From Gallionellales bacterium GWA2_54_124 (lineage in GTDB: Bacteria; Pseudomonadota; Gammaproteobacteria; Burkholderiales; Gallionellaceae): a stretch of 64,000 bases of DNA. The stretch spans positions 66,201 to 130,200 of the forward strand of contig MGWO01000003.1 of the NCBI GenBank assembly GCA_001801025.1, read 5' to 3'. The translations under genes and the position numbers were made by a program. This document shows positions 347 to 27,829 of this stretch, in pieces. The notes under the pieces are model-generated. The model worked only from the letters and a program-made list of their open reading frames with translations. It was not told the DNA's origin and made no database searches. Every line of letters starts with the position of its first letter. The stretch's first letter is position 1.

Positions 347-425
347 GTAGTCTCCTTGCCTTGCGTGAAATTCACATCACGATGTTTTGGTGTAATTAAA
401 TTAGAATGTTCAAACTCAAATAATT

Positions 426-3332: not shown

Positions 3333-3366
3333 AACACAATCACCGCAAGCATAAACATCGCTTCCA

Positions 3367-4245: not shown

Positions 4246-4252
4246 ATCAATT

Positions 4253-5173: not shown

Positions 5174-5182
5174 ATCCGTTCC

Positions 5183-6709: not shown

Positions 6710-6758
6710 TATTTTTATAAAACTCCAATAATATTCATTATGTGCATTCGCAAACGTC

Positions 6759-9703: not shown

Positions 9704-9812
9704 TTTAATTCCTATCGTTTCTCTTACCGCTCAACTTCAAATTATCTAGATGTGCCTAATGCTAGACACCGTGTTCTTTTAGCCAGCAATACTTGCAACA
9801 GCCCTTAATTCA

Positions 9813-10559: not shown

Positions 10560-11505
10560 AAATCATTTCCTTTTGAAAGTTGTTGTTGTCGAAAAGCTGT
10601 GTAATTACATTAATCATGGTTTGACGCGATTCATCTGGTAACGGCCGCACAGACGCGACTCTTGATGCTATCGTAAACAAATTTCCCTCCTTCGGTTCAT
10701 CCGACAAAATATTCACTTGAAGGGTCTCACCATAGCGCGCCAAGTATATCTGCTTTGTTATTTCAGCAATATCACGAATACTACTTAACCAACTGGAGCC
10801 CAGGTTGACAACCTCGCATCCTTGAGGAAAATCACTTAAGAGATGGAGGCACACATTCGCCACCTCATTAGTTGAAATAAAATTTCGCTGCTGTCGACCG
10901 GAAGAACGTAGAGTTAATGTGCCAGTTTGAATGGCCTCCTTCACAAAACACATAGGAACAAGAGTATCCCTACGCACGGTTGACACATCGGGGATTCCAT
11001 AAACATTAGATGGTCTCAGTAAAACGACATCAAGACCGTGGGTTCGCGCATACATTCGACATAATTCTTCGCCAAAAAAATGATTGAGTGCATACGGTGA
11101 CTGGCAACAAACAGGGGTATCCTCGGATATTTCCCCGATTAGTTCGGTACCATAAACTTGCAACGTTGAAACGAATATTATTCGCTTAACTCCTCGCTTC
11201 ACTGCGAACTCCAAAATATTTCGAGTTCCATAAACAGATAGGTTAACACCTGCCTCAAAGTCTCGTGACAAAACATCATTAGCTGTCGCACAATGAATGA
11301 TGGCATCAATGTGGGCGCTGTCATTGCCCTGCAAAATTGGTTTAAGAACATCCAGCGCTATAATTGGCATCCCTAACTCTTGCTCAAGGGTGTCCGATGA
11401 TTTTCTAGAACTAGCAATAACTTCATATCCATCTTGCTTTGCACGAATGGCAACTCGGCTACCAATAAATCCGGAACACCCGGTGATGAGAATTTTAGAC
11501 ATCAT
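10546..11505 (-). CDS. NAD-dependent epimerase/reductase with altered YxxxK motif
   Basis: A 319-residue extended SDR. SKILITGCSGFIGSRV at residues 3-18 is the NAD(P)-binding loop and VSTLQVYGTE supplies the catalytic Ser/Thr. The usual YxxxK is read as SPYALNHFFGEEL: tyrosine is present but the lysine position is histidine (codon CAT). Position after rfbF-rfbG and an RmlC-like epimerase suggests the final 4-keto reduction or epimerisation of a CDP-6-deoxyhexose; the substituted lysine leaves the chemistry uncertain. ATG 11505 (or 11502) follows AAGG, and its start overlaps the end of the upstream gene. Confidence 0.8.
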   Translation of the reverse strand: MMSKILITGCSGFIGSRVAIRAKQDGYEVIASSRKSSDTLEQELGMPIIALDVLKPILQGNDSAHIDAIIHCATANDVLSRDFEAGVNLSVYGTRNILEFAVKRGVKRIIFVSTLQVYGTELIGEISEDTPVCCQSPYALNHFFGEELCRMYARTHGLDVVLLRPSNVYGIPDVSTVRRDTLVPMCFVKEAIQTGTLTLRSSGRQQRNFISTNEVANVCLHLLSDFPQGCEVVNLGSSWLSSIRDIAEITKQIYLARYGETLQVNILSDEPKEGNLFTIASRVASVRPLPDESRQTMINVITQLFDNNNFQKEMIYANN

Positions 11506-12059
11506 GAACCTTGCTTCGTGTTAAGTTTATCAACTGATAGCAATGCCCACTGTCTATCTTTGTCTGACACCTCGGTGACAGGTAAAGGCCACTTAATTCC
11601 CAGCGCAGGATCATCATATCTAAGCCCTCCTTCCGCTTCAGGCGCATATACCGTCGAGACCATATAAAATGCTGTTGCGCCATCGGATAGGGCTTGATAA
11701 CCATGTGCGAATCCCTCAGGAACAACTATCATCAAGCCATTGTCTTCGCTAAGCTCGACGCCGTACCACTGCCCATAAGTCAGTGAATTTTTCCGAATAT
11801 CTACAATGACATCGAAAATTGCGCCGTGGATGCAGCGGACTAGTTTAACTTCGGCATGCGGGGCACGTTGAAAGTGCATGCCTCGTACAATTCCCGCGCA
11901 CTTATTGGTGCTTATATTGCTTTGCATGATATCGACAGCAATTCCGTGCGCGGCGAACTCATTCTTGCAATAAGTACGCGCAAAAACACCTCGTTCATCA
12001 CAACGCTTTTCAAGTGACACTAAAAATGCACCCTCTAGCGGTATTGATTGAAACTTCAT
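11502..12059 (-). CDS. RmlC-type nucleotide-sugar 3,5-epimerase
   Basis: A 185-residue cupin of the dTDP-4-dehydrorhamnose 3,5-epimerase family. GIVRGMHFQRAPHAEVKLV holds the catalytic His (equivalent to LRGLHYQ), GAIFDVIVDIRKNS the second acid/base block, and VPEGFAHGYQAL the conserved Tyr. I start it at ATG 12059, which gives the standard MKFQSIPLEGAFL beginning and the family length; the frame also reaches a TTG at 12095. No rmlA, rmlB or rmlD genes are present, and it directly follows rfbF and rfbG, so it more likely epimerises a CDP-4-keto-6-deoxyhexose than a dTDP sugar. Confidence 0.88.
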   Translation of the reverse strand: MKFQSIPLEGAFLVSLEKRCDERGVFARTYCKNEFAAHGIAVDIMQSNISTNKCAGIVRGMHFQRAPHAEVKLVRCIHGAIFDVIVDIRKNSLTYGQWYGVELSEDNGLMIVVPEGFAHGYQALSDGATAFYMVSTVYAPEAEGGLRYDDPALGIKWPLPVTEVSDKDRQWALLSVDKLNTKQGS

Positions 12060-12075
12060 AGAAAAAACACCCAGT

Positions 12076-13125
12076 TCAAAATTGGTAATCAGCAATTTGT
12101 GCTAACGTAACAGATCGCATATCTGCCCCGTTTCGCCACGCATCATGCCATGCCATTGTTTTTTGCAAAGCAGTTTTAAGCCTCCAGCATGGTTGCCAAT
12201 TTAACAGGCTATTCGCCTTACTGCTATCTAATTTCAAATAATTCGCTTCATGCGGTTGTAGTGATTCGTCGCATTGCCATATTACATCTTTACGCATTTC
12301 GGCCATCCGTTCAACAATCCACCCAACCGGACGCGCATCCTCATCTTTTGGTCCGAAATTCCATGCTTCTGCAAACGGCATCCCCTCGGTATAAAGTCGT
12401 TCCGCCAGCGTCAAATAACCCGACAGGGGCTCCAGCACATGTTGCCATGGGCGGGTGGATTGCGGTGAACGAATTTTTAAGGTCTCACAAGCATCCATTG
12501 CACGCAAAAAATCCGGGATGAGTCGATCTTCGGCCCAGTCGCCACCACCGATAACGTTACCAGCACGAGCTGAAGCCAATGCAATACCTGCCGTCTGCAA
12601 AAATGACTGCCGATAAGCCGATGTCACCAACTCCGCGCAGCCCTTGCTGCTGGAATACGGATCGAATCCGCCCATCGCCTCGTTTTCGCGATAACCCCAC
12701 ACCCATTCACGATTTTCATAGCACTTGTCGGTGGTAATATTCACTACCGCCTTGACACTGGACGTTGCGCGCACCGCTTCGAGCAGATTCACTGTTCCCA
12801 TCACGTTGACTTCATAGGTTTCTGCAGGCTGTGCGTAGGAGTAGCGCACCAAAGGTTGCGCGGCCAGATGAAACACGATCTCCGGGCTGGCGGACTGCAT
12901 TGTCCGCTTCAAATGATGAGCATCGCGAATATCTGCGATGACACTGCTTGCCATCCCCTTTTCCACCTTTGCAACAGTGAACAGGTTAGTATCGGTCGGC
13001 GGATTGAGCGCATATCCATGCACTTCTGCGCCCATTGCTTGCAGCCACAGCGACAGCCAACCGCCCTTAAAACCGGTATGCCCAGTCAAAAAAACACGCT
13101 TGCCGCTCCAAAAATCCGGATTCAC
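12076..13125 (-). CDS. rfbG: CDP-glucose 4,6-dehydratase
   Basis: A 349-residue enzyme that turns CDP-D-glucose into CDP-4-keto-6-deoxy-D-glucose. [19 protein letters not shown] (N-terminal) is the signature RfbG NAD-binding loop. [35 protein letters not shown] and YSSSKGCAE (catalytic YxxxK) all match the family. I prefer the GTG at 13125, whose GTGA overlaps the rfbF stop and which has GGAAGG 7 bases upstream; GTG 13131 would add two residues. It works directly after RfbF and commits glucose-1-phosphate to CDP-6-deoxysugars. Confidence 0.93.
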
Positions 13126-13895
13126 TTCCACACCTTCCAGGGTGCGCGCCCTGATTGCCAGAGCTCTTCCAAGTGATTCTTGTCTCGCAGCGTATCCATG
13201 GGTTGCCAGAACCCACTATGTTCGTAGGCCATCAGCTCTCCTTGGGCCGCCAGATTGCTCAGCGGCTCTCCTTCCCACGAAGTGCGATCATCTGCGATCA
13301 AGTTTATACAGCTCGGCGACAATACGAAAAACCCTCCGTTTATCCACCCGCCATCACCTTGCGGCTTTTCGATAAAGCCGCGTACCAGTTTTCCGTTCAG
13401 ATCCAACGCACCGTATCGCCCGGGAGGCTGGACCGCAGTAACAGTCGCAAGCTTACCGTGCATTTTGTGAAATGCCAGTTGAGCTGTGATATTGACGTCA
13501 GAAACACCATCTCCATAAGTAAAGCAAAATGCCTCCTCGTCTTTAACATATTCGGCCACACGCTTCAGACGACCACCCGTCATGCTGTTTTCGCCTGTAT
13601 CTACCAGCGTCACACGCCATGGCTCAGCATTGCGCTGATGCACTTCCATCTGATTATTATGCATATCAAAAGTGACATCTGACATGTGCAAAAAGTAATT
13701 AGCGAAGTATTCCTTGATCACATAACCCTTGTATCCACAGCACACCACGAAATCATTTATTCCATGAGCAGAATACATTTTCATAATGTGCCAGAGAATT
13801 GGTCGTCCACCAATTTCTATCATCGGCTTCGGTCGTAAGGAGGTTTCTTCGCTGATGCGCGTTCCTAACCCCCCCGCAAGAATAACGGCTTTCAT
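13122..13895 (-). CDS. rfbF: Glucose-1-phosphate cytidylyltransferase
   Basis: Makes CDP-glucose from CTP and glucose-1-phosphate. [18 protein letters not shown] is the nucleotidyltransferase signature; [27 protein letters not shown] (metal-binding Asp) and [19 protein letters not shown] are conserved in RfbF. The ATG at 13895 overlaps the upstream stop as TAATG, has GGGGAT 8 bases upstream and gives 257 residues, the usual RfbF length; an in-frame ATG at 13916 has no visible ribosome site. It couples with rfbG through a GTGA overlap, so the pair is one metabolic unit. Confidence 0.95.
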
Positions 13896-15073
13896 TATAT
13901 TGATCCCCGCAGACATGAAAGGGCTGCTATCGCTTCCGGCAATGGATAGTGATGATTTCCCACAAATAATCCATTCTGGTCGATATGCTCGGCGTTTTTC
14001 AAAATGCCATGCACTTCCGAATCAAAATATTTGACCACTTCATTTTTAGCGAAATTACCCGCTACGATAGGACGGCACTCGAATCCCAGCTCATTTAGCT
14101 TGATTACCAGCGCTTTACGCGTCAGTTTACTGCCAGGACGAATGACCAGACTGAAACCGAACCAGCTGCTTTCACCAATTTCCTGTTGAATAATGAGATC
14201 GGGATGATTCGCCAGCGCGGCTTGCAGCATTTTCCCGTTCTTGCGACGCTCTTCAATCAGCATCGGTAAGCGTTTTACCTGCTCAATCCCCAACGCCCCC
14301 TCCATTTCCAGTGGGCGAACGTTGTATCCAGGCAATACAAAACGGAACGACTCCTCAAATGGATCATCGCTTTTATCGCTGCAAACCAAATTCTGCTTGG
14401 GCAGGTTGCGCGTCCAACCGTGCGCACGCAGCGACAACAAAATTTGATATAGTTCTTCGTCATCGGTAACGATCATGCCGCCTTCCATAGTCGAAATATG
14501 ATGACTGAAGAAGGTGCTGTAGCCACCCATTACACCAAACGTGCCAGCATGCTTGCCATGATATTTGGCACCCATAGACTCACAGTTGTCTTCCATCAAA
14601 ACGATGTTGCGTTCGCCGATGATTTGTTGAATGCGCCCGAAATCATTCGGATTGCCCAGCAGGTTCACCGCCATGATCGCACGCGTTTTATCTGTAACGG
14701 CCTGCTCGAGTTGGTCGAGATCGTAATTCAAGGTATTCAGATCGATATCCACAAACTTGATCTTCAAGCCATATTGATACAACGGATAGTAAGTGGTGCT
14801 CCACGATACAGCCGGCACAATCACCTCATCACCGCGCTGCAGTTTCAGCGCAGGATTCTTGGTGTAAAACAGGGCAGCCACCATCAGCAAAATCGCCGAC
14901 GAACCAGAGTTCACCATTACACAATGCTTACTGCCGACATACTGCGCGAAATCACGCTCAAAGGCCTGCACGTTTGCACCCATGGTGTACATGCCGGATG
15001 AGATCACGCGTTGCATCGCATCCTGCTCTTCTTGCCCCCAGGTAGCAGTGGCCAAAGGAAACTTGAAACTCAT
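13895..15073 (-). CDS. colD: ColD-type PLP-dependent sugar 3-dehydratase (DegT/DnrJ fold)
   Basis: A 392-residue aspartate-aminotransferase-fold enzyme. The lysine that normally binds PLP is replaced by His in [14 protein letters not shown] (His191/192), the hallmark of the 3-deoxygenating dehydratases ColD and RfbH. The cysteine-rich [2Fe-2S] segment of RfbH is absent; instead [13 protein letters not shown] and [14 protein letters not shown] match what I recall of ColD, which acts on GDP-4-keto-6-deoxymannose. The neighbours gmd and an fcl/colC-like gene fit that substrate. ATG 15073 has AAGGAG 8 bases upstream, and ATGA overlaps the upstream stop. Substrate is inferred; a CDP-sugar substrate is the alternative because rfbF follows. 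Confidence 0.82.
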
Positions 15074-16002
15074 TGCAAAAGCTCCTTCAAATAAAAGCTG
15101 TAGGTTTTTTCAATTCCTTCGCCCAAGCTGCGCTGCGCTTCCCAGCCCCACGCTTTTTGCCGTTCCACATTGACTAATTTTCGCGCCATTCCGACTGGCT
15201 TACTGAGTTCATGTGAAAATCCGCCCGTGTAGCCTATCACATCGGCTGCAGCCTGATAGTATTCGTTGATGGTGTAATCATACCCCAGTCCGATATTCAT
15301 CAAAGCCGGCAACGAATCGAATTCCTTGATCGCGCGAACCATCGCATCGGCTAAGTCGCCTGCATACATAAATTCACGCCGCGCTGTTCCATCACCCCAT
15401 ATCTCAACTGATGTCTGTCCGGCCTGTTTAGCCTGATAAACTTTATGAATAATGGCCGGAATCAGATGCGAATGCGCAGGATCGAACTTATCATGACAGC
15501 CGTAGAGATTACACGGAATGAGTGTCTTGTACTGGAAGCTCGCATCCTCGCGCATGATGTATTCACACAACCGTGCGGTCACCACTTTAGCTAGGGCGTA
15601 ACCTTCATTGGTCGGCTCCAGCTCCCCCTTCAATACCATTTCTTCTGACAACGGCTCCGAGTGGTTACGCGGATACATGCAAGAACTGCCCAGATTGATC
15701 AGGCGTTTAATCCCTGCCTGATGCGCAGCCCAGACAATGTTGCGCCCCATGTCGAGGTTGTCCATCAAGAAACCAACCGGTTCGCGCATATTGGCCTGAA
15801 TACCCCCCACCTTGCCTGCTGCATGGATCACCATATCGGGCTTAGTTTTAAGCAAATAGGCTTGCACGGCATCGAAGTCGAGCAAATTCAATTCACGGCT
15901 AGCTGGAGCGAGAACATCAAACTCACCAATACCCGGATGATCAAGCAGGTTACGCCCGACCATCCCGCCACCACCGGTCAATAAAATTTTCAATTTATTC
16001 AT
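15070..16002 (-). CDS. GDP-L-fucose synthase family protein (Fcl or ColC)
   Basis: A 310-residue extended SDR that epimerises and reduces GDP-4-keto-6-deoxyhexoses. KILLTGGGGMVGRNLLDH is the NADP-binding loop, AAGKVGGIQANMREP and LGSSCMYPRNH (catalytic Ser and Cys) are family signatures, and NEGYALAKVV carries YxxxK. LIPCNLYGCHDKFDPAHSH and RREFMYAGDLADAM complete the pattern. The next gene encodes a ColD-like dehydratase, so this may be ColC (GDP-L-colitose synthase) rather than Fcl (GDP-L-fucose synthase); the two cannot be separated by motifs. It lies 14 bases after gmd and overlaps the next gene by ATGA. Confidence 0.85.
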   Translation of the reverse strand: MNKLKILLTGGGGMVGRNLLDHPGIGEFDVLAPASRELNLLDFDAVQAYLLKTKPDMVIHAAGKVGGIQANMREPVGFLMDNLDMGRNIVWAAHQAGIKRLINLGSSCMYPRNHSEPLSEEMVLKGELEPTNEGYALAKVVTARLCEYIMREDASFQYKTLIPCNLYGCHDKFDPAHSHLIPAIIHKVYQAKQAGQTSVEIWGDGTARREFMYAGDLADAMVRAIKEFDSLPALMNIGLGYDYTINEYYQAAADVIGYTGGFSHELSKPVGMARKLVNVERQKAWGWEAQRSLGEGIEKTYSFYLKELLQ

Positions 16003-16016
16003 CGCGTAGGCAGCTA

Positions 16017-17144
16017 TTATTCTTTGGGCGTTGAAGTTGAATAGCCGTGTTTCTTTAACAAGGCATGACGGCGCGCATCTTCCAGATCGTGTGCGGCCAT
16101 TTCAGCGCACATTTGCTGCACGGTGATCTCCGGCACCCAGCCCAATTTTTCTTTAGCCTTGGTCGGATCACCCAGTAGGGTCTCAACCTCAGCGGGACGG
16201 AAATAGCGAGGATCAATGCGCATAACCACGTCCCCCACCTTTAATGCAGGGGCCTTATCTCCTCCGATCGCGACCACCGTCGCCACTTCATCGACACCTG
16301 TACCGGCAAATTCAAGGGTAAGGCCCAACTCCGCAGCCGACCAAGTAATAAACTGGCGCACCGAATACTGCACGCCGGTCGCAATCACGAAATCTTCCGG
16401 CTTCTCCTGTTGCAACATCATCCACTGCATGCGCACGTAATCTTTTGCATGACCCCAGTCACGTAGCGAGTCGATATTGCCCATGTACAGACAAGCTTCC
16501 AGACCCTGCGCGATATTCGCCAGACCGCGCGTAATTTTACGCGTCACAAACGTCTCGCCGCGACGCGGAGATTCGTGGTTAAACAGGATACCGTTGCAGG
16601 CGTACATACCATACGCTTCGCGGTAATTCACCGTGATCCAGTACGCATACAGTTTCGCCACCGCATACGGGCTGCGCGGATAAAACGGTGTAGTTTCCTT
16701 TTGTGGCGTTTCCTGCACCAAGCCGTAGAGTTCGGAAGTGGACGCCTGATAAAAACGCGTCTTCTTCTCCAGACCCAGCAAACGGATCGCCTCCAGTATG
16801 CGCAATGTGCCCATGCCGTCGACATCCGCCGTGTATTCGGGCGACTCGAAACTCACCGCCACATGCGATTGCGCACCCAGGTTGTAAACCTCATCGGGCT
16901 GCACTTCCTGCAGGATACGTGTGAGATTAGAGCTGTCGGAAAGATCACCGTAATGCAATTTGAAGCGCACATTTTTAATGTGGGGGTCTTCAAAAATATG
17001 ATCTATCCGCTGGGTATTGAACGACGAGGCACGGCGCTTGACCCCGTGAACCTCGTAGCCTTTTTCAAGGAGAAATTCAGCCAGATACGAACCGTCCTGA
17101 CCGGTAACCCCAGTGATCAGTGCAACTTTATTTGCCGAACTCAT
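16017..17144 (-). CDS. gmd: GDP-mannose 4,6-dehydratase
   Basis: Converts GDP-D-mannose to GDP-4-keto-6-deoxy-D-mannose, the branch point to GDP-fucose, colitose, rhamnose and perosamine. At 375 residues it matches Gmd length. [18 protein letters not shown] is the Gmd NADP loop, [17 protein letters not shown] the conserved cofactor-binding segment, STSELYG and [12 protein letters not shown] the catalytic Ser/Thr and YxxxK, and [16 protein letters not shown] the tetramer/cofactor block. ATG 17144 overlaps the stop of the upstream regulator (ATGA). manC and manB are not in the window, so GDP-mannose must come from elsewhere. Confidence 0.97.
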
Positions 17145-17509
17145 GCAGGAACACCCTCACGCTCATTGATTTTAATTTTTGTAGCGCCATGCTGCTCAAC
17201 GCTCTGCCTTAGTTCTGCAATTTCTACCCGCAATCGCTCGTATTCCCGAATCTTGATTTGCAGAAACTCTACAGTTAAGTGCGCCTTTTGCTCTACACCC
17301 TGTGGTGTCAGCAGGTAAACATAGGCTAGTTTATTGTCGCTGTTACGAAAATTCTCTGCTTTCAAGCAGCCCTTAGCGATCAACGCATTCAAGCAAAAAT
17401 TTACCTTGCCAAGACTAACACCCAACCGCTTCGCCAAATCTCTCTGGGAAAGGTTGGGCTCATCGGCCAATGTCTTGAGCAATCCGTAACTGGTGGTATC
17501 GTCGAACAT
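17141..17509 (-). CDS. MarR-type EPS-associated transcriptional regulator
   Basis: A 122-residue winged-helix protein. Residues 4-60 ([40 protein letters not shown]) form a MarR-like helix-turn-helix; [17 protein letters not shown] is the wing, and residues 80-115 ([20 protein letters not shown]) are a probable coiled coil for dimerisation. This matches the small EPS-associated MarR family found beside exopolysaccharide clusters. It is the first gene of the minus-strand polysaccharide locus and overlaps gmd by ATGA, so it is cotranscribed and may control the whole run. The promoter should lie in 17510-17576, where I see no clear -35/-10 pair. Confidence 0.85.
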
Positions 17510-17576: not shown

Positions 17577-18911
17577 TTACTTCAGCGCCCCGTTGACCTT
17601 GATCAATACCGCTTCGCCCAGCGATCCGACTGCCGCTTTCAGGCGCAGTTGACTAAGAAGGTAGTTGTATTCGGCCTGATAGAGATCACGGCGGGTCGAA
17701 TACAGCTGCTGCTGGGCGTTGAGCACATCAAGATTGGTACGAACGCCCACTTCCTGCCCCAGACGACTGGCCTCAAGCACGCTTTCACTGGAGGTGAGCG
17801 CCTGTTGCAGCGCTTGAACCTGCGCGATACCGCTCACGACCCCCAGATACGCCTGACGGGTTTGCGATGCGACGCTGCGGCGCGCGTTTTCCAGCTCCTG
17901 CCGCGCCCGTTCGCTATTCGCATTCGCTTCGCGCCACTTCGAGTTGGTTGCGCCGCCCTGAAAGATCGGCAAATTCAGCTGCACGCCGACGCTCTTATTG
18001 ACGCTGTCGCTGCCGACGCCGAAACTGCTGCCGTTCGCAAAGTTTTTAGAATAGTTCGCCACCAGATCCATCGTCGGATAATGACCGCCGCGATTTCTCG
18101 CGACTTCCTTTTCGGCAAGCTGAGCGCCGGCCTGCGCGATGGCGATCTGCGGACTGTTAATCTGAGCATCGCCCACCCATTTTTCCATATCGGCAGGTTG
18201 CGGTGCATCCAGACTGAATTGTTTGCCTAAGGATTTAAGCTCCTTGGGCTGCGCATTGATCAGCTGCTGCAACGCGCTGCGCTTGATTTCCAGATTGTTC
18301 TGCGCGGCAATTTGTTGCGAGGAAGTCAGATCGAAACGCGCCTGCGCCTCGTGGGTATCGGTGATGGTCGCGCTGCCGACTTCGAAATTGCGTTTGGCCT
18401 GCGCCAGCTGCTCGGAAATCGCCGTTTTTTGCGCCTCGGCCAACTGCACACTGTCCTGCGCGATCAACACATCGAAGTAGGCTTGAGCGGTGCGCAGCAG
18501 CAGGTCCTGCTCGGCCACTTTAAATTGCGCCTCACTTTGTGCGACCTGCAGTTCTGATTCGCTATAGGCCAGCCAATTTTGCTGACGGAGCAGGGGCTGC
18601 ACCAGCGTCACGCCGTAACCATGGGAGTTGTAGCGCTGATTGCCGCCGGGAAACAGGGTCGCCCCCTTGTACTGCGTCGTTAAATCATTAAAGGTGCTGT
18701 TGGCCGACAGATTGACGCTCGGCATCAGCAGGGCACGGCCTTGCGGCAATTTTTCCTGTCCCGCCTGTTGCGCGGCGCGCGCCGCGGCAAACACCGGATC
18801 GTTGCTTTGCGCGCTGCGAAAGGTGTCGAGCAAGTCGGCGGCCTGCGCACAGAGAGGAGCACCGAGGACAATCGCCAGTGCCAGACGTGAGGTGAATAGC
18901 TTAGTTTTCAT
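17577..18911 (-). CDS. tolC: TolC family outer membrane channel
   Basis: A 444-residue outer-membrane efflux/type I secretion channel. The start is taken at ATG 18911, which exposes a signal peptide (MKTKLFTSRLALAIVLGAPL, cleavage after AQA near residue 24); the frame extends upstream without initiation signals. Two OEP repeats follow: N-terminal ADLLDTFRSAQSNDPVF and long amphipathic helices rich in Gln, Ala and Glu, then a second set (TNLDVLNAQQQLYSTRRDL near residue 400). Length fits TolC. It is downstream of the arabinose-type operon with a 116-base gap, and pcm-like and thiC genes lie beyond that operon. Confidence 0.9.
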   Translation of the reverse strand: MKTKLFTSRLALAIVLGAPLCAQAADLLDTFRSAQSNDPVFAAARAAQQAGQEKLPQGRALLMPSVNLSANSTFNDLTTQYKGATLFPGGNQRYNSHGYGVTLVQPLLRQQNWLAYSESELQVAQSEAQFKVAEQDLLLRTAQAYFDVLIAQDSVQLAEAQKTAISEQLAQAKRNFEVGSATITDTHEAQARFDLTSSQQIAAQNNLEIKRSALQQLINAQPKELKSLGKQFSLDAPQPADMEKWVGDAQINSPQIAIAQAGAQLAEKEVARNRGGHYPTMDLVANYSKNFANGSSFGVGSDSVNKSVGVQLNLPIFQGGATNSKWREANANSERARQELENARRSVASQTRQAYLGVVSGIAQVQALQQALTSSESVLEASRLGQEVGVRTNLDVLNAQQQLYSTRRDLYQAEYNYLLSQLRLKAAVGSLGEAVLIKVNGALK

Positions 18912-19027
18912 CGGATTCGCGCATAGTTTATTAGATTTTGCTAATATTATCGCTTGCCGCCCTAATGCGCAAACAATACTTGAAGTGCCGCCAACAGTAC
19001 CAAGCATTCACCGCCGGCACAATACCC

Positions 19028-19984
19028 TCAACGATTTTTCAAACGGCGCTCGGACATCGACAGCGCAATGACGCCCAGCGCCACTGCGAACCACAGCGTC
19101 GCAAGCCGAATCAGCACGGTTGCCGCCACCGCCTGCGGTTGCGCGACACTGTTTAACATCAACAGCGCAACCATGGTCGCTTCCGCGCCACCCAAGCCCC
19201 CCGGCAGAAAGCTGAGCGCGCCAATCAGCATGGAAAACACATAGATGAACAGCGCGACCTGAAGCGACAAATCACTACCCAACCAATGCATGATGTAATA
19301 AAACGCCAGCCCTTCCGCACCCCACGCCACCAGCCCCAGCGCGATGCCATACAACAGCATCGGCAGACTAAAACAGTGCCGCGAATGCAGCACGACATCA
19401 ACAGCATGCCCGGCAAGATTGCCCAACCGAGCAGGCAGTCGCCGCTGCGCGAAAGATTTGAGCACTTCCAGCCAGCGTGCCTGCTGGAGCACCAGCAGAA
19501 TAACAATAATCAGCACGGCCAGGATCAGCACGACAGGCCCCGCCTTGGGATAAATCGCCATGCCGATTGCGACTAGCAGCAACATGCTGATTAAATTAGA
19601 TAAATGCTCAGAAAAAAAGGCGGCCAAACTCTCAGGATAGGGCACGCCGTGCTTTTTCAAAAATACGCTGCGTATCGCCTCACCCGCCTTACCCGGCAGG
19701 ATCGTCAGGCCAAAGCCCGCAATGTAGATACGCAGACTCTCCGGCGTATGCACCCGGTGACCCAGTACCCCTAAAAATTTTTGCCAGCGCACAAAACGCA
19801 CACCGTAGTTGACCAGCGAAAGCAGCAGCGCAATGGCGATGCCCGTCAATCCGACCCGCACGATCGCCGCCACCACTTCGTGCCAACCGCCCCACAGCGA
19901 AAAAGCCAGATAGCCTATGGCACTCAGCAAAATCACCAGCAATAGCGCGCGAAATCGCCAGCCTGACAACACGGCGCCCGTCAT
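19028..19984 (-). CDS. Flippase-like membrane protein (LPG synthase TM-region/UPF0104 family)
   Basis: A 318-residue protein with about eight hydrophobic segments. FGLTILPGKAGEAIRSVFLK and SFLPGGLGGAEATMVALLML are the two conserved blocks of the UPF0104/lysylphosphatidylglycerol-synthase membrane family, some members of which are proposed lipid flippases. There is no C-terminal aminoacyltransferase domain, so it is not MprF. The ATG at 19984 overlaps the stop of the UbiA-type gene (ATGA), making it the last gene of the arabinose-type operon. A role in moving polyprenyl-phosphoryl-pentose across the membrane is inferred from this position only. Confidence 0.75.
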   Translation of the reverse strand: MTGAVLSGWRFRALLLVILLSAIGYLAFSLWGGWHEVVAAIVRVGLTGIAIALLLSLVNYGVRFVRWQKFLGVLGHRVHTPESLRIYIAGFGLTILPGKAGEAIRSVFLKKHGVPYPESLAAFFSEHLSNLISMLLLVAIGMAIYPKAGPVVLILAVLIIVILLVLQQARWLEVLKSFAQRRLPARLGNLAGHAVDVVLHSRHCFSLPMLLYGIALGLVAWGAEGLAFYYIMHWLGSDLSLQVALFIYVFSMLIGALSFLPGGLGGAEATMVALLMLNSVAQPQAVAATVLIRLATLWFAVALGVIALSMSERRLKNR

Positions 19985-20853
19985 GAGATCAGCAGCATTG
20001 TCGCGAGCAGCCAGGCGCCCAGCGAAATAAACAGGTGGGGATCGCGCACCAGATCATGCGACGGGTCGCCCCCGCGGCTCTGGTGATGCAGCAGGTAGAT
20101 GTAACGGAACATGCCGTACATGACAAACGGCACGGTGTAGATCAGATTATTCGTGCCGTGGATGCGGATCGTGTCCGCGTTCATGGTGTACAGGCTATAG
20201 CTCATAATCACGCCCGAGGCGGTGATGCCGATCATCTTGTCCAGCAGCACCGGACTGTAATGCGCCAGCACCCGGCGATGCGCGGCCTTGTCTTCGGTCA
20301 GCGCGATGATCTCCGCGCGGCGTTTGGCAAAACCCAGAAACAGCGTCACCATCAGACCGCACAGCAGCAGCCATTGCGACGGCGGAATGCCCACCCCGAG
20401 CGTGCCGGCGAGCAGGCGCAACATGAATCCCGTGGCGATGATGAACACATCCAATATCACCACATGCTTGAGCCGCAACGAATAGGCAATGTTCATCAGC
20501 GCATAGCCTGCCAGTATCAGCAGCACGACGGGGGAGGCGAGATACGCCAGCAGCAGCCCCGCGGTTCCCAGCAATACGGCGAGCAGGATGGCGGCGAACA
20601 CCGATACCTCACCTGAGGCCAGCGGTCGTAACCGCTTCTTCGGATGCTGTTTGTCCTGCTCCACATCGACCAGATCGTTGAGCGTATAGATCGCACTGGA
20701 CACCAGACAAAAGGCCGCGAAGGCCATCACGACCTGCATCACTGCCGCCTGATCATGCCACGCATGGCCGAACAGCAGGCCGGCAAACACAAAGGTATTT
20801 TTCACCCACTGATAGGGGCGCATCAAACGCAACAGCGATAATAATTTTTTCAT
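19981..20853 (-). CDS. UbiA-family polyprenyl-phosphate phosphoribosyltransferase (Rv3806c/NoeC-like)
   Basis: A 290-residue membrane prenyltransferase-fold protein. RPYQWVKNTFVFAGLLFGH and IYTLNDLVDVEQDKQHPKK (NDxxDxxxD metal/diphosphate site, about residues 59-68) followed by RLRPLASGEVS are the signature of 5-phosphoribose-1-diphosphate:decaprenyl-phosphate phosphoribosyltransferase rather than of ubiquinone UbiA. It would transfer 5-phosphoribose from PRPP to a polyprenyl phosphate. TGATG overlap links it to the upstream HAD gene, which would remove the 5-phosphate. About nine membrane helices are visible. Confidence 0.87.
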   Translation of the reverse strand: MKKLLSLLRLMRPYQWVKNTFVFAGLLFGHAWHDQAAVMQVVMAFAAFCLVSSAIYTLNDLVDVEQDKQHPKKRLRPLASGEVSVFAAILLAVLLGTAGLLLAYLASPVVLLILAGYALMNIAYSLRLKHVVILDVFIIATGFMLRLLAGTLGVGIPPSQWLLLCGLMVTLFLGFAKRRAEIIALTEDKAAHRRVLAHYSPVLLDKMIGITASGVIMSYSLYTMNADTIRIHGTNNLIYTVPFVMYGMFRYIYLLHHQSRGGDPSHDLVRDPHLFISLGAWLLATMLLIS

Positions 20854-21467
20854 CAGCTCGATTCCGGAAATTGCCGGTAAAAGGAGAAATCCGCGCCCGC
20901 CAGCAATTCGCGATCGCCCCGACTGTCGCCGTAGGCGTACAAGGTATACACGCTGCGCTCACCCAGCAACGCGTTAAGCCGCCTGACCTTTTCTGCGCCA
21001 AAACAGTTTACCCCCGACATCCGGCCGGTCAGGGTGCGATCATCGCGAATTTCGAGTTGCGTGGCGATCACCTCATCAAAGCCCGCGTTTGTCGCCCAAG
21101 GCCTGACGTATAACTCAAGCGAGGCGCTAATCACCACACAGCGATGCCCCTGCTGTTTGTGCCACGCAAACCGCCGCATCGCCTCCGGCCGCAACAATCC
21201 GGGCACCACCTGAGCGGCGAACACATCGGCCTCCTGTTGCAACGCCTCGATATTTTTTCCCTCTAGGCACGCGACAAATACCCGCTCCTTCGCAATGCCG
21301 TTATCAATCAACCCAAAAGCGTGGGCGGCCAGCGTGCGAGATAAACGCACCGCCTGAATCATCACCGCCCGCACACCCAGCGTATGCAGCAAAAAAGGCA
21401 ACAGCGTATCGCGACGCGTTAACGTGCCGTCGAAATCGAATGCCGCTACGACCTCGCGCTGACTCAC
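20853..21467 (-). CDS. HAD-IB phosphatase, probably removes 5-phosphate of polyprenyl phosphoribose
   Basis: A 204-residue HAD hydrolase. AAFDFDGTLTRRDTLLPFLL near the N-terminus is motif I (DxDGT), RCVVISASLELYV motif II, and the C-terminal AEKVRRLNALLG with YAYGDSRGDRELL supplies motifs III and IV. The protein has the serine-phosphatase-like (IB) layout. GTG 21467 overlaps the upstream SDR stop as GTGA. In the Azorhizobium noe genes a HAD protein (NoeH) occupies the same place between the NoeC and NoeO homologues; mycobacteria are reported to use a different phosphatase family. The substrate is inferred from this operon. Confidence 0.83.
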   Translation of the reverse strand: MSQREVVAAFDFDGTLTRRDTLLPFLLHTLGVRAVMIQAVRLSRTLAAHAFGLIDNGIAKERVFVACLEGKNIEALQQEADVFAAQVVPGLLRPEAMRRFAWHKQQGHRCVVISASLELYVRPWATNAGFDEVIATQLEIRDDRTLTGRMSGVNCFGAEKVRRLNALLGERSVYTLYAYGDSRGDRELLAGADFSFYRQFPESS

Positions 21468-22201
21468 ATCTTCATCCGTTTAAAGACAGCCTCGGGAATA
21501 TGCTTGATGATCAGCATGATATAGCGCCAAAATCCCGGCAGATACACCACGTCGGCCGGTTTCCCCAGGGTCGCGACGATGCGCTGACCGATCTGCTGCG
21601 GGGTGGCGACCAGAAACAAGCCGGGCAAACCATAGGTCATCGCCGTATCCACGAAACCGGGCTTCACGGTGATGACGCGTACCCCGTGAGGATAAAGCCG
21701 GTTACGCAGCCCCTGCAGGTAAAGACTGAGCGCCCCCTTGGCCGCACCGTACACATAATTGCTCTGCCGGCCGCGATCTCCTGCCACCGAAGAAATACCG
21801 ATGATAAAACCGCGCTGCAAGGGCTCAAAATAATTCGCACACAGGCTCAGGATTGAGACCGCACCGGTAAAATTGCTGGCGATGACTTTAGCGGCCACGG
21901 CAAAATCGCGCGCCGCCAGCTGATTGCCCAGATAGCCAAAAGCCAGCACGACACCCGACAAATCGGGCGTGTCTGCCAGCACCGCATTAAAGAAGGCCTC
22001 GTGTGTTTCGGTCGCTTCCGCGTCGAACACACGATAATGCACCGTCACCCCATAGCGCAATTGAAGGTCGGCGGCACTGCGCCGCAATTCGTCCTCGTCA
22101 CGGGACGCCAGGTACAGGTTATCGCCCCGCGCGGCAAAAGCGGCCGCGACTCCGCGCGCAATGGCGGAGGTCGCCCCCAGTATCAGTATGCATTCGCTCA
22201 T
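21464..22201 (-). CDS. DprE2-like SDR, ketopentose reductase subunit
   Basis: A 245-residue classical short-chain dehydrogenase. ILILGATSAIARGVAAAFA is the NAD(P) loop with the TSAI variant typical of DprE2, ISSVAGDRGRQSNYVYGAAK contains catalytic Ser, Tyr and Lys, and VITVKPGFVDTAMTYGLPG follows. DprE2 reduces the 2-keto intermediate made by DprE1, inverting C2 to convert polyprenyl-phosphoryl-ribose into the arabinose form. It overlaps the DprE1-like gene (ATGA) and the HAD gene (GTGA). Family membership is clear; the exact pentose is inferred. Confidence 0.87.
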   Translation of the reverse strand: MSECILILGATSAIARGVAAAFAARGDNLYLASRDEDELRRSAADLQLRYGVTVHYRVFDAEATETHEAFFNAVLADTPDLSGVVLAFGYLGNQLAARDFAVAAKVIASNFTGAVSILSLCANYFEPLQRGFIIGISSVAGDRGRQSNYVYGAAKGALSLYLQGLRNRLYPHGVRVITVKPGFVDTAMTYGLPGLFLVATPQQIGQRIVATLGKPADVVYLPGFWRYIMLIIKHIPEAVFKRMKM

Positions 22202-23529
22202 CTGTCCTCCGCCGTAATGCCCAGACGCCGTGACAGGCTGGAACTAAAGCGCTGCTCAGGATCAACCGAATTTTTTACGGCCCGCCATTCCTGATAGCGC
22301 GGATACATCAAGGCAAAGGTCTCCGCTGATAAGCGCGCATCCTTAGCCAGATAAACCCGGCCACCGTAGTGCAGCACGATTTCATCAAGCGTGTTCAACA
22401 GATCAAACAGCCCCGCGTCGCGGATCGGCAAATCGAGCGCCAGCGTGTAACCCTTCATCGGAAAGGACAGCAGCCCGCGCCCTTCGGCGCCGAAGCGTTT
22501 CAACACAGCCAGAAACGACGGCCGGCGACTCGCTGACAGCGTTTGCAGCAATTTTTGCATCCCATCATAGGCCGCCGCATCCGGAATCACACACTGGTAT
22601 TGCACGAAACCGCGCTTGCCGTACATCCGGTTCCAGTTTTCCAGCGCATCCAAGGGATAGAAATACGCATCCCAGCCGCTCGCGAAGGCCTCGGGCTTGC
22701 CCGATTCGCGGCGAAAATACTGCGAATTGAATGCGCCGATGCTGATTGAATTGAGTGCCCAGTCGGGAAAATCGAACGGGATGCGACGCTGAGAAGCTGC
22801 TTGCGGTATGGTCGTCACGTCTTCCGCATGATGACCGCACATCAAAATGCCGCGCCCCAGTTGTGCACCGGTCGCCATGCTGTCTATCCACGCCACGGTG
22901 TAACGATCATCGATAGCAGGATTCTGCATCAGCGCGAATAACTGTTCGAGATTCGCTGCCGCATGGTGCCGCACCGTCATCTGCGAATTTTGAATTGCGA
23001 TGAGCTTAATCGTCACCTCGGCGATAATGCCGGTCAGCCCCATCCCGCCGACCGTCGCCCAGAACAGCAGCGCATTTTGCTCCGCCGAGCAGGTCATGCG
23101 ACTGCCATCCGCCAGCACCAGTTCAATGGCCAGCACATGATCGCCAAAGGCGCCGTCATGGTGGTGATTCTTGCCGTGCACATCCGCTGCCACGCAACCG
23201 CCCAGCGAGACAAATTTAGTCCCCGGGGTGACCGGCAAAAACCAGCCTTTGGGGACGATGACCGCCAAAATCTCGCCCAGCGTCACCCCCGCTTCCGCGC
23301 GCAGAATACCCTGATCCGTATCGAATTCAAGCAGCCGGTTCACGCGTTCGGTCAGCAACACGCGCCCGTTTTCGTTGAGCGAGGCATCCCCGTAGCTGCG
23401 CCCCTGACCGCGCACGATTAAGCTTGCCGTATCGGGGAGCAACGCCGCATAACGCTCGGGGCGCGCCAATTCGCAGACCTGCACCGGATAGCGCCCCCAG
23501 CCACTGATCGCCGTTGTTAAAGTTCCCAT
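22198..23529 (-). CDS. DprE1-like FAD-dependent oxidase subunit of pentose 2-epimerase
   Basis: A 443-residue FAD-binding oxidoreductase of the VAO/D-arabinono-lactone oxidase type. IVRGQGRSYGDASLNENG (about residues 38-55) and KFVSLGGCVAADVHGKNHH (about 106-124) are the FAD-binding loops seen in mycobacterial DprE1. The substrate domain includes YPLDALENWNRMYGKRGF, and the C-terminus LAKDARLSAETFALMYPRY matches the family. It would oxidise C2 of polyprenyl-phosphoryl-ribose. ATG 23529 abuts the stop of the GT-C gene with no gap, and its own end overlaps the DprE2-like gene. Confidence 0.87.
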   Translation of the reverse strand: MGTLTTAISGWGRYPVQVCELARPERYAALLPDTASLIVRGQGRSYGDASLNENGRVLLTERVNRLLEFDTDQGILRAEAGVTLGEILAVIVPKGWFLPVTPGTKFVSLGGCVAADVHGKNHHHDGAFGDHVLAIELVLADGSRMTCSAEQNALLFWATVGGMGLTGIIAEVTIKLIAIQNSQMTVRHHAAANLEQLFALMQNPAIDDRYTVAWIDSMATGAQLGRGILMCGHHAEDVTTIPQAASQRRIPFDFPDWALNSISIGAFNSQYFRRESGKPEAFASGWDAYFYPLDALENWNRMYGKRGFVQYQCVIPDAAAYDGMQKLLQTLSASRRPSFLAVLKRFGAEGRGLLSFPMKGYTLALDLPIRDAGLFDLLNTLDEIVLHYGGRVYLAKDARLSAETFALMYPRYQEWRAVKNSVDPEQRFSSSLSRRLGITAEDR

Positions 23530-25041
23530 CTAGTTCACCTGTTCCGGAAAATATTTTTCGCAGAAATAACACGGCGCATGCGGTAAAAATTCCGGGATTT
23601 TATAGTGCCGGCTCAAAATGGGTCTCAATATCTTCTCTTTATAAGAACGGTAATCAAAATCATAGCCCAGCACAAAATAGAAGGGCACGCCGCGCAGCTC
23701 AAATTTCACAACCTCCACACGATTAAAATAAGGCGCATACAACGCCAGATCCGGCGCGGATTTGATAACGACCAGCACATTGCGCCCGTTCAACTGACGA
23801 AAATCGGTCAGCATGTCGTCCTGCCGCGCAAAAGTCGACCCGCTGCCGAACACCGAAAAATTCTTGCCGTAATGGTAGGAGATGATCGCCGCCGACGTAT
23901 AGCCGTCCGATGACAGCACGAAGCCCTGCTGTTCATAGGGGCGAACCTTGTCGACGATCTCGTCATTTCGGAACATGAACACGATGCCGTCGTACAGGTT
24001 AGTGCCCTTCCAGCTCTCCATCGGCATCAAAGCGATCACCGCGACAACCGCCAGATGCGCGCCGGTAAACCACAGGGTGAATTTAAAGGTCGAGCGCAGC
24101 GCCTGCCCGCTTAGCATCATGCCGAGCATCACATACAAGAAGGGGTAGAACGCCAGCACCCAGTGCAGACCGATATCCCGCTTGAGCGACAACAAGGCAA
24201 ACAGAGTGAGCGGAAGGCAGAACAGCCAGGCAAACAGGCGAAACTCCGGGTAACGTAATGTTTCACGCCATTGCGCACGGTGTTTAAACACATAGTAAAT
24301 CACCGGCGGCGTCATCAGATACAGCTGCACCGCGAGGAAAGTCGCGATCTTGTCCGGCGAAAAATGCTCATTTTCGTTGCGGTTATACAGATTGAACAGG
24401 ATGTTGTCCCAACAATGGGTGTAGTTCCAGTACAAATTAACCAGCGCAAACGGCAGCGCAGCAAGATAGAGCAGCGCGAAACCTTTAGTCTTTTGCAGCG
24501 ACTTAGCGGAAAAAACAAAATAGGCCAGATACGCCAGGCCCAGCAGCACGGCGAAATATTTGGACAAAAATGCCATGCCGAACAGCGCGCCGGCTAACGC
24601 GTACCAGCGCAGGCTATTTTTCTGCAAGGCACGAGCGAGCGCCCAGGCCGACAGGAAAGCGAACAAAATCAAAGGGGTGTCTGTCGTGACCAGCACGTTC
24701 AGCACATTCAGCGGGGAGACCAGATACAGCATTGCGGCCAGCTCTGCACGCGTTTCGTCGAACGGTCTGATCAACCGGTAAATGCCGATGCCGATCAGCG
24801 TCGAGAGCAAAATCGCAGGCAACCGCAACACGACCTCAGAATTGCCCAGAAACAACATCAGCTGCAAAAACCAGCCCGCCATGGGCGGGTGATCGTAATA
24901 ACCAAAATCGGGGTGATGCGCCCAGACGACGAAATAAGCCTCATCACCGGACAGCGGAATCAGCCAGGCAAGATAAAACTTGATCGCCAGCGTTACCAGC
25001 AAAACAAGTGCGAGCGGCGACCCAAGCTTCATCTGGCTCAT
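23530..25041 (-). CDS. GT-C family glycosyltransferase (GT39/ArnT-like)
   Basis: A 503-residue multi-helix transferase that uses a polyprenyl-phosphate sugar donor on the periplasmic side. LIPLSGDEAYFVVWAHHPDF holds the first-loop Asp-Glu pair characteristic of GT39/ArnT enzymes, followed by GYYDHPPMAGWFLQ. At least ten hydrophobic segments precede a C-terminal soluble part. It is the first gene of the DprE1/DprE2/HAD/UbiA operon, so it is the best candidate for the transferase that uses the polyprenyl-phosphoryl-pentose. Acceptor (pilin, LPS or another glycan) is unknown. The gene begins 30 bases after the pcm-like gene. Confidence 0.83.
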   Translation of the reverse strand: MSQMKLGSPLALVLLVTLAIKFYLAWLIPLSGDEAYFVVWAHHPDFGYYDHPPMAGWFLQLMLFLGNSEVVLRLPAILLSTLIGIGIYRLIRPFDETRAELAAMLYLVSPLNVLNVLVTTDTPLILFAFLSAWALARALQKNSLRWYALAGALFGMAFLSKYFAVLLGLAYLAYFVFSAKSLQKTKGFALLYLAALPFALVNLYWNYTHCWDNILFNLYNRNENEHFSPDKIATFLAVQLYLMTPPVIYYVFKHRAQWRETLRYPEFRLFAWLFCLPLTLFALLSLKRDIGLHWVLAFYPFLYVMLGMMLSGQALRSTFKFTLWFTGAHLAVVAVIALMPMESWKGTNLYDGIVFMFRNDEIVDKVRPYEQQGFVLSSDGYTSAAIISYHYGKNFSVFGSGSTFARQDDMLTDFRQLNGRNVLVVIKSAPDLALYAPYFNRVEVVKFELRGVPFYFVLGYDFDYRSYKEKILRPILSRHYKIPEFLPHAPCYFCEKYFPEQVN

Positions 25042-25071
25042 CGGGTCACAGCTCGCACAGGTTCTGAAAAA

Positions 25072-25719
25072 TTAAAATACAAAACGTTTAGGTTGTTGCG
25101 CATTTTTCAGCGCGGCGACAGACGTTTCCATGATGTTGACCGTTTCAAATACATCCGCTGCAACGCGCGTGATCAGCCGGGCTTCCATGACCGGCGCATC
25201 GCCAACGATGGCAAACAGACGTCCGCCGACATTCAGACTGCTTTGAAACACCAGCGGCAACACCGGCGTCGACCCCGTCAACACGATCACGTCGTATTTT
25301 TCGCTGCCCCAGCCATGCGATGCGTCGCCGACCGCCAGCGTCACATTTTCGCGGTGCAGCAAATGGGTGCGCGCAACTTCACTCAATTCAGCCTCGATTT
25401 CGACCGAGGTGACGTGACCTGTCAAGGCGGAAAGCAACGCCGTCAGATAACCGCTGCCGGTGCCGACTTCCAGCACTTTATCCGAACGACCGAGATGCAA
25501 CTCCTGCAACACACGCGCTTCGAGCTTGGGCTGCCACATCGAAACGCCGTAGCCTAACGGAATTTCCATATCCATAAAGGCCATCGCTTTTTTTCCTTCA
25601 GGCACGAACTGTTCACGCCTGACGTGATGGAGCAACTCGAGAATCCGCGCTTCCAACACGTCACACGGGCGAATTTGCTGTTCAATCATGTTGAAGCGTG
25701 CCTGTTCCATATTCTGCAT
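25072..25719 (-). CDS. PCMT-family methyltransferase (protein-L-isoaspartate methyltransferase-like)
   Basis: A 215-residue class I methyltransferase. ATG 25719 has GGAG 6 bases upstream and gives MQNMEQARFNMIEQQIRPCD, the usual beginning; an ATG at 25731 lacks a site. KVLEVGTGSGYLTALLS is SAM motif I and GDASHGWGSEKYDVIVLTG the motif II region. The catalytic Ser-Gln-Pro segment of true Pcm is changed to VSMWQPKLEARVL, so repair of isoaspartate is uncertain. It is divergent from thiC, and the arabinose-type operon separates it from tolC. Confidence 0.82.
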   Translation of the reverse strand: MQNMEQARFNMIEQQIRPCDVLEARILELLHHVRREQFVPEGKKAMAFMDMEIPLGYGVSMWQPKLEARVLQELHLGRSDKVLEVGTGSGYLTALLSALTGHVTSVEIEAELSEVARTHLLHRENVTLAVGDASHGWGSEKYDVIVLTGSTPVLPLVFQSSLNVGGRLFAIVGDAPVMEARLITRVAADVFETVNIMETSVAALKNAQQPKRFVF

Positions 25720-25842
25720 TTTGATCTCCATCCCGGTGAGTTTAGATATTATTTTTGCCAGTATAACAACACACCCCGTCCGGCTCAACACAACTACAAT
25801 GCGCGGGGTTGCTTTTCCCCTACTTTTCCAGTAACTTGCACG

Positions 25843-25928
25843 ACTCGCTGGGGGTCTTTGTCTGTTTTTTTCAGCAAAGTGAGAAACACCCTTTGAACCT
25901 GTACGGATAATGCCGTCGTAGGGAAGCA
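25843..25928 (+). promoter_or_regulatory. TPP riboswitch (THI element) in the thiC leader
   Basis: The leader contains the conserved aptamer blocks in order: a GGGGGTC segment near 25850, a GAGAAACACCC junction near 25881, CTTTGAACCTG (25891-25901), GGATAATGCC (25905-25914) and CGTAGGGAAG (25917-25926). ACGG/CCGT form the short pyrophosphate-side helix. This is the standard thiamine pyrophosphate sensor and lies 31 bases before the thiC start. It should lower thiC expression when TPP is plentiful. The closing P1 helix is weak in the form I can draw. Confidence 0.93.
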
Positions 25929-25947
25929 CGATGCTTCCCTTCTTTTT
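25921..25947 (+). terminator. Hairpin plus T-run downstream of the TPP aptamer (expression platform)
   Basis: GGGAAGCA (25921-25928), loop CGA, TGCTTCCC (25932-25939) is a perfect 8-bp hairpin followed at once by TTCTTTTT (25940-25947), the form of an intrinsic terminator. Its 5' arm is the same bases as the last conserved part of the aptamer, so aptamer and hairpin compete. The thiC ribosome site AGGAA begins directly after the T-run. Confidence 0.8.
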
Positions 25948-25949
25948 AG

Positions 25950-27829
<1,880 letters not shown>

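Follow-up and report, generated by a model that had tools for sequence, protein, structure and literature searches.

A probable D-pentofuranosylation module with a UPF0104 candidate flippase, inserted between pcm and tolC in Gallionellales bacterium GWA2_54_124

We have analysed a 64,000-nucleotide stretch of the genome of Gallionellales bacterium GWA2_54_124 (contig MGWO01000003.1, positions 66,201 to 130,200; hereafter the window), in which six minus-strand genes between a pcm-like gene and tolC probably form a self-contained D-pentofuranosylation module, combining a donor pathway with transfer in the periplasm. An original prediction from the sequence alone had read these genes as a self-contained module that puts a D-pentofuranose on the envelope. 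Gene identities and order, predicted folds, an insertion and gene linkage, all established here by computation, support that reading. By analogy with characterised homologues, a polyprenyl-phosphate phosphoribosyltransferase of the UbiA fold (PPPRS) would join phosphoribosyl pyrophosphate (PRPP) to polyprenyl phosphate, giving polyprenyl-phospho-ribose-5-phosphate, from which a HAD phosphatase would remove the 5'-phosphate; DprE1 would then oxidise C2 and DprE2 reduce the ketone, yielding polyprenyl-phospho-D-arabinofuranose. Fold and linkage suggest that the UPF0104 protein would carry the lipid-linked sugar to the periplasmic leaflet, and that an ArnT-like GT-C transferase would transfer it there to an envelope acceptor. 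The genes and their flanks are as follows.

25072-25929, minus strand: pcm-like methyltransferase gene, upstream flank (PF01135, 104 bits)
23530-25041, minus strand: GT-C transferase of ArnT-like fold (PMT_2, PF13231), 503 aa; proposed periplasmic pentofuranosyltransferase
22198-23529, minus strand: DprE1-like FAD oxidase, 443 aa; proposed C2 oxidation of polyprenyl-phospho-ribofuranose
21464-22201, minus strand: DprE2-like SDR reductase, 245 aa
20853-21467, minus strand: HAD-IB phosphatase, 204 aa, GTG start; proposed 5'-phosphate removal from polyprenyl-phospho-ribose-5-phosphate
19981-20853, minus strand: PPPRS, Rv3806c-like UbiA fold, 290 aa
19028-19984, minus strand: UPF0104/PF03706 membrane protein of MprF flippase fold, 318 aa; candidate flippase for the lipid-linked pentofuranose
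17577-19007, minus strand: tolC, downstream flank (TIGR01844, 331 bits)
~18971-25071, no strand: inserted stretch between tolC and pcm, from the empty site of a relative (L201) and the gaps in 32 genus genomes

The six open reading frames (ORFs) at 19028-25041 each overlap or abut the next, the junctions in transcription order being a 0 bp gap and then overlaps of 4, 4, 1 and 4 bp, in agreement with the zero gap and 1-4 bp overlaps first described. Each of the six gene assignments is upheld, whether by a profile, by a PDB sequence match or by the predicted fold. Neither GC content (0.569 in the module, 0.556 in window positions 25072-64000) nor the counts of promoter-like sites (1; 3.8 in shuffled sequence) and of terminator-like sites (13; 10.5 in shuffled sequence) were informative.

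Judged by its profile scores and motif, the UbiA protein is a PPPRS of the Rv3806c kind. It scores 290 bits against NF008977 (decaprenyl-phosphate phosphoribosyltransferase; cut-off 234), matches PDB entry 8j8j (E 2e-40) and carries the PRPP-type motif NDxxDxxxDxxHPxKRxRP (sequence NDLVDVEQDKQHPKKRLRP). The original prediction hinged on this protein not grouping with ubiquinone prenyltransferases, and the NCBIfam scores place it with the phosphoribosyltransferases; a ubiquinone-type UbiA prenyltransferase is ruled out, the protein reaching 35 bits against TIGR01474, whose cut-off is 275. A second, distant UbiA homologue in the same genome (at C7) has 29% identity. The HAD phosphatase matches PF12710 (140 bits) and TIGR01490 (155 bits), with the motifs DFDGTL and GDSRGD. 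The DprE1-like protein matches DprE1 in the PDB over its full length (E 7e-87) and keeps the DxHGKNHH / KDxR residues (DVHGKNH and KDAR are present), and the DprE2-like protein has a DprE2 chain, 21gq_C, as its best PDB match (E 5e-31) and scores 300 bits against NF005489, above the 267 required. Motifs checked in the UbiA, HAD, DprE2 and DprE1 proteins were all intact. In the PDB alignment, an alanine of the DprE1-like protein stands opposite the NICVDFP cysteine of the mycobacterial chain, which is the covalent benzothiazinone site.

The GT-C protein has the predicted fold of lipid-phosphate-sugar transferases and is nearest to undecaprenyl-phosphate-binding ArnT, at 15% identity. Its likeness to ArnT is one of fold alone, as a GT-C profile of 26 sequences found no PDB sequence at E 1. 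An acidic residue follows the first transmembrane helix, a GT-C feature described in PMC11127046. Mainly from linkage and fold, we infer that the enzyme uses a lipid-linked pentose. Close ArnT-like GT-C proteins (E < 1e-200) occur only in this genome, G007 and G012, among 37.

The linkage extends well beyond this genome. Relatives of the GT-C protein were found in named genomes with peptide patterns of its subfamily, and the best 80 of at least 572 confirmed relatives were analysed. A same-strand PPPRS-like UbiA gene lies within 3 kb in 55 of these 80 loci and within 9 kb in 61, and five of six such UbiA neighbours checked scored above the NF008977 cut-off, the sixth above that of NF008978. 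By our own arithmetic, at one PPPRS per ~4 Mb genome, chance would give less than one linked locus in 80, the loci being related and not independent. UPF0104 (16 loci), HAD (17) and DprE1 (12) were the other neighbours. The commonest content was PPPRS only (46 loci), followed by none of these genes (14), by PPPRS with DprE1, DprE2, UPF0104 and HAD (9), by PPPRS with UPF0104 and HAD lacking DprE (6) and by other combinations (5). The named records with all six genes are of metagenomic origin, those of two Sulfuriferula (L127 and L128) among them, whereas the GT-C/PPPRS pair is present in a strain record, Sulfurisoma sediminicola BSN1 (L180).

A scan of 398 genomes of the phylum, with at most three GT-C candidates scored per genome and positions compared by eye, gave GT-C matches at E 1e-30 or better in 27. 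Each of the four long, strong ones (G000, G056, G083 and G142) has a PPPRS no more than 3 kb away. The remaining 23 genomes gave weaker, partial matches; nine of them have a PPPRS, in no case within 10 kb of the GT-C match on one contig. Of the 398 genomes, 57 gave PPPRS-like matches at E 1e-30, in 4 of them over the curated cut-off. From the 56 other genomes we fetched 55 PPPRS stretches (G056 having been seen as L030), several of which end at contig ends, and 44 contain DprE1. Related modules are widespread, and this one is less singular than the original prediction had it. Part of this linkage may already be drawn in the supplementary cluster maps of PMC11127046.

Within the genus, DprE1 matches better than E 1e-85 were found in nine of 36 relatives, with 70-79% identity in eight of them (one match being partial) and 44% in another. 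The order DprE1-DprE2-HAD-UbiA-UPF0104 is the same in the seven of these loci where the five genes are all separate (G007, G012, G025, G026, G030, G035 and G036) and was also seen in other genera; because this five-gene order recurs, the block is not a chance arrangement. The ninth locus, G034, is cut by a contig end. In five of the seven, one or two large membrane proteins, GT-C-like by reading, stand between HAD and UbiA; of six such proteins scanned with Pfam, three have TPR matches, one above the curated cut-off, and three have none. G025 (L023, 3594-16226) holds five paralogous TPR-type membrane proteins, three before and two inside its arabinose cassette. A search of the window's own genome with one TPR-type protein returned seven matches, all of them to the TPR region at its C terminus. 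The DprE1 proteins of the window and of G025 are sisters (100/97); G025 is 82% complete, and no ArnT-like GT-C was found in it. Together with the constant cassette order, this suggests, from sequence comparison, that the transferase has been swapped on a constant donor cassette.

The UPF0104 gene is the sole transporter-like gene in the operon, and its product passes the PF03706 gathering score and has a predicted MprF flippase fold. In the 398 phylum genomes, scanned with at most five candidates scored per genome, this subfamily gave 16 matches, 13 of them strong, and nine lie within 10 kb of a PPPRS (9/13 of the strong matches, 9/16 of all). Mainly on linkage and fold, it is likely that the protein flips the lipid-linked pentofuranose to the periplasmic leaflet. 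Flippase activity had been proposed in 2015 for the whole of COG0392 (UPF0104), together with a part in archaeal glycosylation (PMC5898192). Our literature search, with supplements and most subscription papers outside its scope, recognised no paper tying UPF0104 to PPPRS or DprE genes, and the words 'UPF0104' and 'MprF' are absent from the main text of PMC11127046.

Several observations weigh against this reading of the operon. The sequences behind the UPF0104 profile came from PPPRS loci, a choice that favours linkage, and four of the 13 strong matches (G074, G136, G157 and G080) are unlinked to a PPPRS, those of G074 and G157 seeming, by reading, to be set among other glycosylation genes. 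A clear UPF0104 of this type occurs in 8 of the 55 PPPRS stretches, with one weak fragment besides. The DprE1-like protein scores 422.6 bits against NF053785, under the equivalog cut-off of 500, and the DprE2-like protein 188 bits against NF053786, under that of 250. Nineteen of the best 80 GT-C loci have no same-strand PPPRS within 9 kb. Contig ends truncate some of these, and eight (L129, L131, L165, L172, L179, L182, L192 and L194) lack one despite almost 9 kb on both sides. A UbiA-like gene is on the opposite strand in L144 and L197. In G033, the congeneric genome with the 44% DprE1, the order is UPF0104, a HAD-UbiA fusion, DprE1 and DprE2.

As most PPPRS loci are without this UPF0104, the others must use something else. 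The same may hold here: the donor pathway would stand with one step changed if a GtrA/SMR, MATE or other protein elsewhere did the flipping and UPF0104 were otherwise employed, for example in lipid or undecaprenyl-phosphate recycling. The 8 of 55 count favours this, as do the flippases proposed for known systems, a MATE protein in C. youngae and the SMR protein Rv3789 (PMC11127046). Nevertheless, the UPF0104 gene follows UbiA in the seven congeneric loci and precedes it in the eighth (G033), and the mostly PPPRS-linked subfamily with its MprF flippase fold argues for flipping by UPF0104. We consider another flippase unlikely, if a serious contender.

For the acceptor, lipopolysaccharide (LPS) is our guess, with chances somewhat short of even. 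The O-antigen locus, a GT9 gene and LptF/LptG point to it, none of them strongly. Beyond tolC, at 426-17509, the window holds an O-antigen/exopolysaccharide (EPS)-type locus, with a Wzx-like gene, a carbamoyltransferase and a MarR_EPS regulator (TIGR04176, 150 bits) by profile and sugar-nucleotide genes by reading; the GC content of window positions 1-17500 is 0.459, well below that of the module. A GT9-family gene lies near the module in L125. LptF/LptG are near the GT-C in 6 of the best 80 loci (two groups) against 0 of the 55 PPPRS stretches, and three of the six have no nearby PPPRS. This hint is weak because the LptF/G profile was built from five of those six loci and because pepA-valS-lptFG is a common housekeeping region. 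Gene clusters common to at least five of the best 80 loci were mostly housekeeping-like by reading, and only LptF/LptG stood out.

The acceptor could instead be a protein such as a type IV pilin (compare TfpW of Pseudomonas), with the donor pathway unchanged. D-arabinofuranose (D-Araf) is known on P. paraeruginosa pilins (PMC12369383, PMC11841053). No pilin was noticed in the ORF lists, though no pilin-directed search was made, and the LptF/LptG counts and the adjoining O-antigen-type locus speak weakly for LPS. A protein acceptor appears doubtful, to much the same degree as a different flippase.

It is less probable again that the sugar is not D-arabinofuranose, either because DprE1 and DprE2 yield another pentofuranose or because the GT-C uses ribofuranose. 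Both DprE scores fall under the curated cut-offs, C. youngae ORF12 accepts ribofuranose and xylofuranose (PMC11127046), and among the best 80 GT-C loci the 46 with PPPRS only and the 6 with PPPRS, UPF0104 and HAD all lack DprE. The 46 suggest, from gene content, a ribofuranose version of the system, consisting of GT-C and PPPRS and lacking DprE, UPF0104 and HAD. In a tree of GT-C proteins (86 rows; root arbitrary), the window protein falls in an 8-row clade, all with DprE1 (support 99); DprE1-bearing rows also occur elsewhere, and there are large clades of PPPRS loci lacking DprE. This topology is consistent with a single system that exists in a ribofuranose and an arabinofuranose version. Arabinofuranose is nevertheless favoured here, as DprE1 and DprE2 are contiguous, each is the best PDB match of its gene, and their homologues accompany Araf-containing glycans (PMC11127046).

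The position between pcm and tolC had been taken as a hint of insertion, and comparison of that interval in relatives bears this out. A search of 41 genus genomes located tolC in 38 and pcm in 36; in 32 of them, among which is this one, the two genes share a contig and a strand. They stand 12-529 bp apart in 31 of the 32 and 6,214 bp apart here; G005, G013, G015 and G019, with pcm and no tolC match on that contig, are uninformative for the gap. Against the empty site of the closest relative (L201), blastn homology stops at 18970 and restarts at 25072, and 3 bp separate the two matches in L201; thus ~18971-25071, holding all six genes, was inserted. In G007, G012 and G026 the cassette adjoins an sppA-like gene (named by reading) whose homologue here is on a different contig, and the module therefore occupies different sites. 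Its position, unique among the 32 genus genomes, might suggest an acquired module that is degenerate or silent and has no present function; this is very improbable given six open frames, intact UbiA, HAD, DprE2 and DprE1 motifs, and gene overlaps that suggest coupled translation.

No tRNA was found in the window, and the repeats checked as marks of the insertion are short and mostly inside coding DNA. PPPRS had tblastn matches in 100 of 72,556 plasmid records, and the GT-C partial matches in 9; one of 50,697 phage records matched PPPRS. On dairy Lactococcus plasmids of 47 kb (records H11 and H12), the annotation names a decaprenyl-phosphate phosphoribosyltransferase whose sequence has 34% identity to the UbiA protein of the window. 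A second tolC-like gene lies at G000:C2:157757-159019 and shares 84% identity with tolC of the window.

Our best reading is that the module would resemble in its working the extracytoplasmic pentofuranose pathways reported in 2024 (PMC11127046), with a different candidate flippase family. The closest known systems are the three-component systems of C. youngae O1 and O2 (Kelly et al. 2024, PMC11127046), which, like the module, cluster a PPPRS and HAD-type phosphatase activity with a candidate flippase and a GT-C, and which add a pentofuranose in the periplasm, a step predicted here from the genes. DprE1/E2 homologues are found, as in the module, in C. youngae-type systems where the sugar is Araf. 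However, the HAD is separate in the module and fused in C. youngae, the candidate flippase is of UPF0104/MprF fold and not MATE, and the 503-aa GT-C has no room for a carbohydrate-binding module like residues 503-652 of C. youngae ORF12. The C. youngae transferase is GT136, and elaborate systems with several GT-Cs are mentioned in the same paper. As its candidate flippase is not of the MATE family, we do not class the module as a C. youngae-type member. The HAD profile of the module gave a domain match in 5 of 48 long UbiA proteins (at least 430 aa; best 0.006), and because these matches are few and weak, the fused HADs and the separate ones do not seem closely related in sequence.

Other systems are related in part. 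The mycobacterial decaprenyl-phospho-arabinose pathway (Rv3806c, Rv3807c, DprE1, DprE2, Rv3789, Emb/Aft) has homologous PPPRS, DprE1 and DprE2, and GT-C acceptor enzymes. The type IV pili pathway of P. paraeruginosa (PSPA7_6245-6251 with TfpW) has a PPPRS ortholog and a D-Araf product (PMC12369383, PMC11127046); it differs in having TfpW in the pilA allele region and a phosphatase of another family. In the Azorhizobium caulinodans gene string nodABCSUIJZnoeCHOP, noeC, noeH and noeO were proposed for a D-arabinose precursor (PMC2443382), and we liken noeCHOP to the module by that proposed role, not by sequence; its acceptor is the Nod factor. ArnT (GT83, the lipid A aminoarabinose transferase) has fold and undecaprenyl-phosphate-sugar chemistry in common with the GT-C, and differs in its low identity and in that the module's donor is predicted to be a pentofuranose. 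The UPF0104 protein belongs by family and fold with the MprF/AglD C-terminal flippase family (PF03706, UPF0104, COG0392); unlike MprF and AglD, it is stand-alone and linked to lipid-phospho-pentose genes. Extracytoplasmic pentofuranose pathways (PMC11127046) and the COG0392 flippase proposal (PMC5898192) were known already. What appears new here, from sequence comparison, is the GT-C/PPPRS linkage among the best 80 loci, mostly lacking DprE, UPF0104 or HAD, and the constant donor cassette with its varying GT-C.

Divergent DprE1/DprE2-like pairs occur in L033 (G026), L032 (G058), L229 (G070), L230 (G188), L231 (G125) and L232 (G228), and the DNA fetched for these six stretches gave no PPPRS-profile match. 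A GT2 gene lies within ~5 kb of each, identified with Pfam in L033, L229, L230 and L231, and in L032 and L232 with phmmer alone. The one in L230 is directly upstream and has the ArnC-type NF007986 as its best NCBIfam match (164 of 529 bits). UPF0104 adjoins the pair in L032 and L033, and no GT2 was found in L233, a seventh such locus. These divergent pairs may epimerise another lipid-linked sugar from a GT2 synthase. Outside the module, a TPP riboswitch (Rfam RF00059, 59.5 bits) occupies plus-strand positions 25840-25941, immediately ahead of an ORF at 25959 taken for thiC by reading.

More broadly, we tentatively propose, as a conjecture more apt to fail than to hold, that proteins of UPF0104/MprF fold make up a family of flippases acting on lipid-linked pentofuranoses; that a constant donor-flippase cassette would serve exchangeable GT-Cs, ArnT-like or TPR-bearing and up to five per locus; that a widespread simpler form of GT-C and PPPRS lacking DprE would attach ribofuranose to some conserved component of the envelope, perhaps LPS, in many Betaproteobacteria; and that gain of DprE1/E2 would switch the sugar to arabinofuranose. 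The operon is compact and its UPF0104 gene overlaps the donor synthase gene, making the flippase question testable by one deletion. Additionally, the GT-C/PPPRS pairing predicts pentofuranose decoration in many environmental Betaproteobacteria, with the gene pair as its marker.

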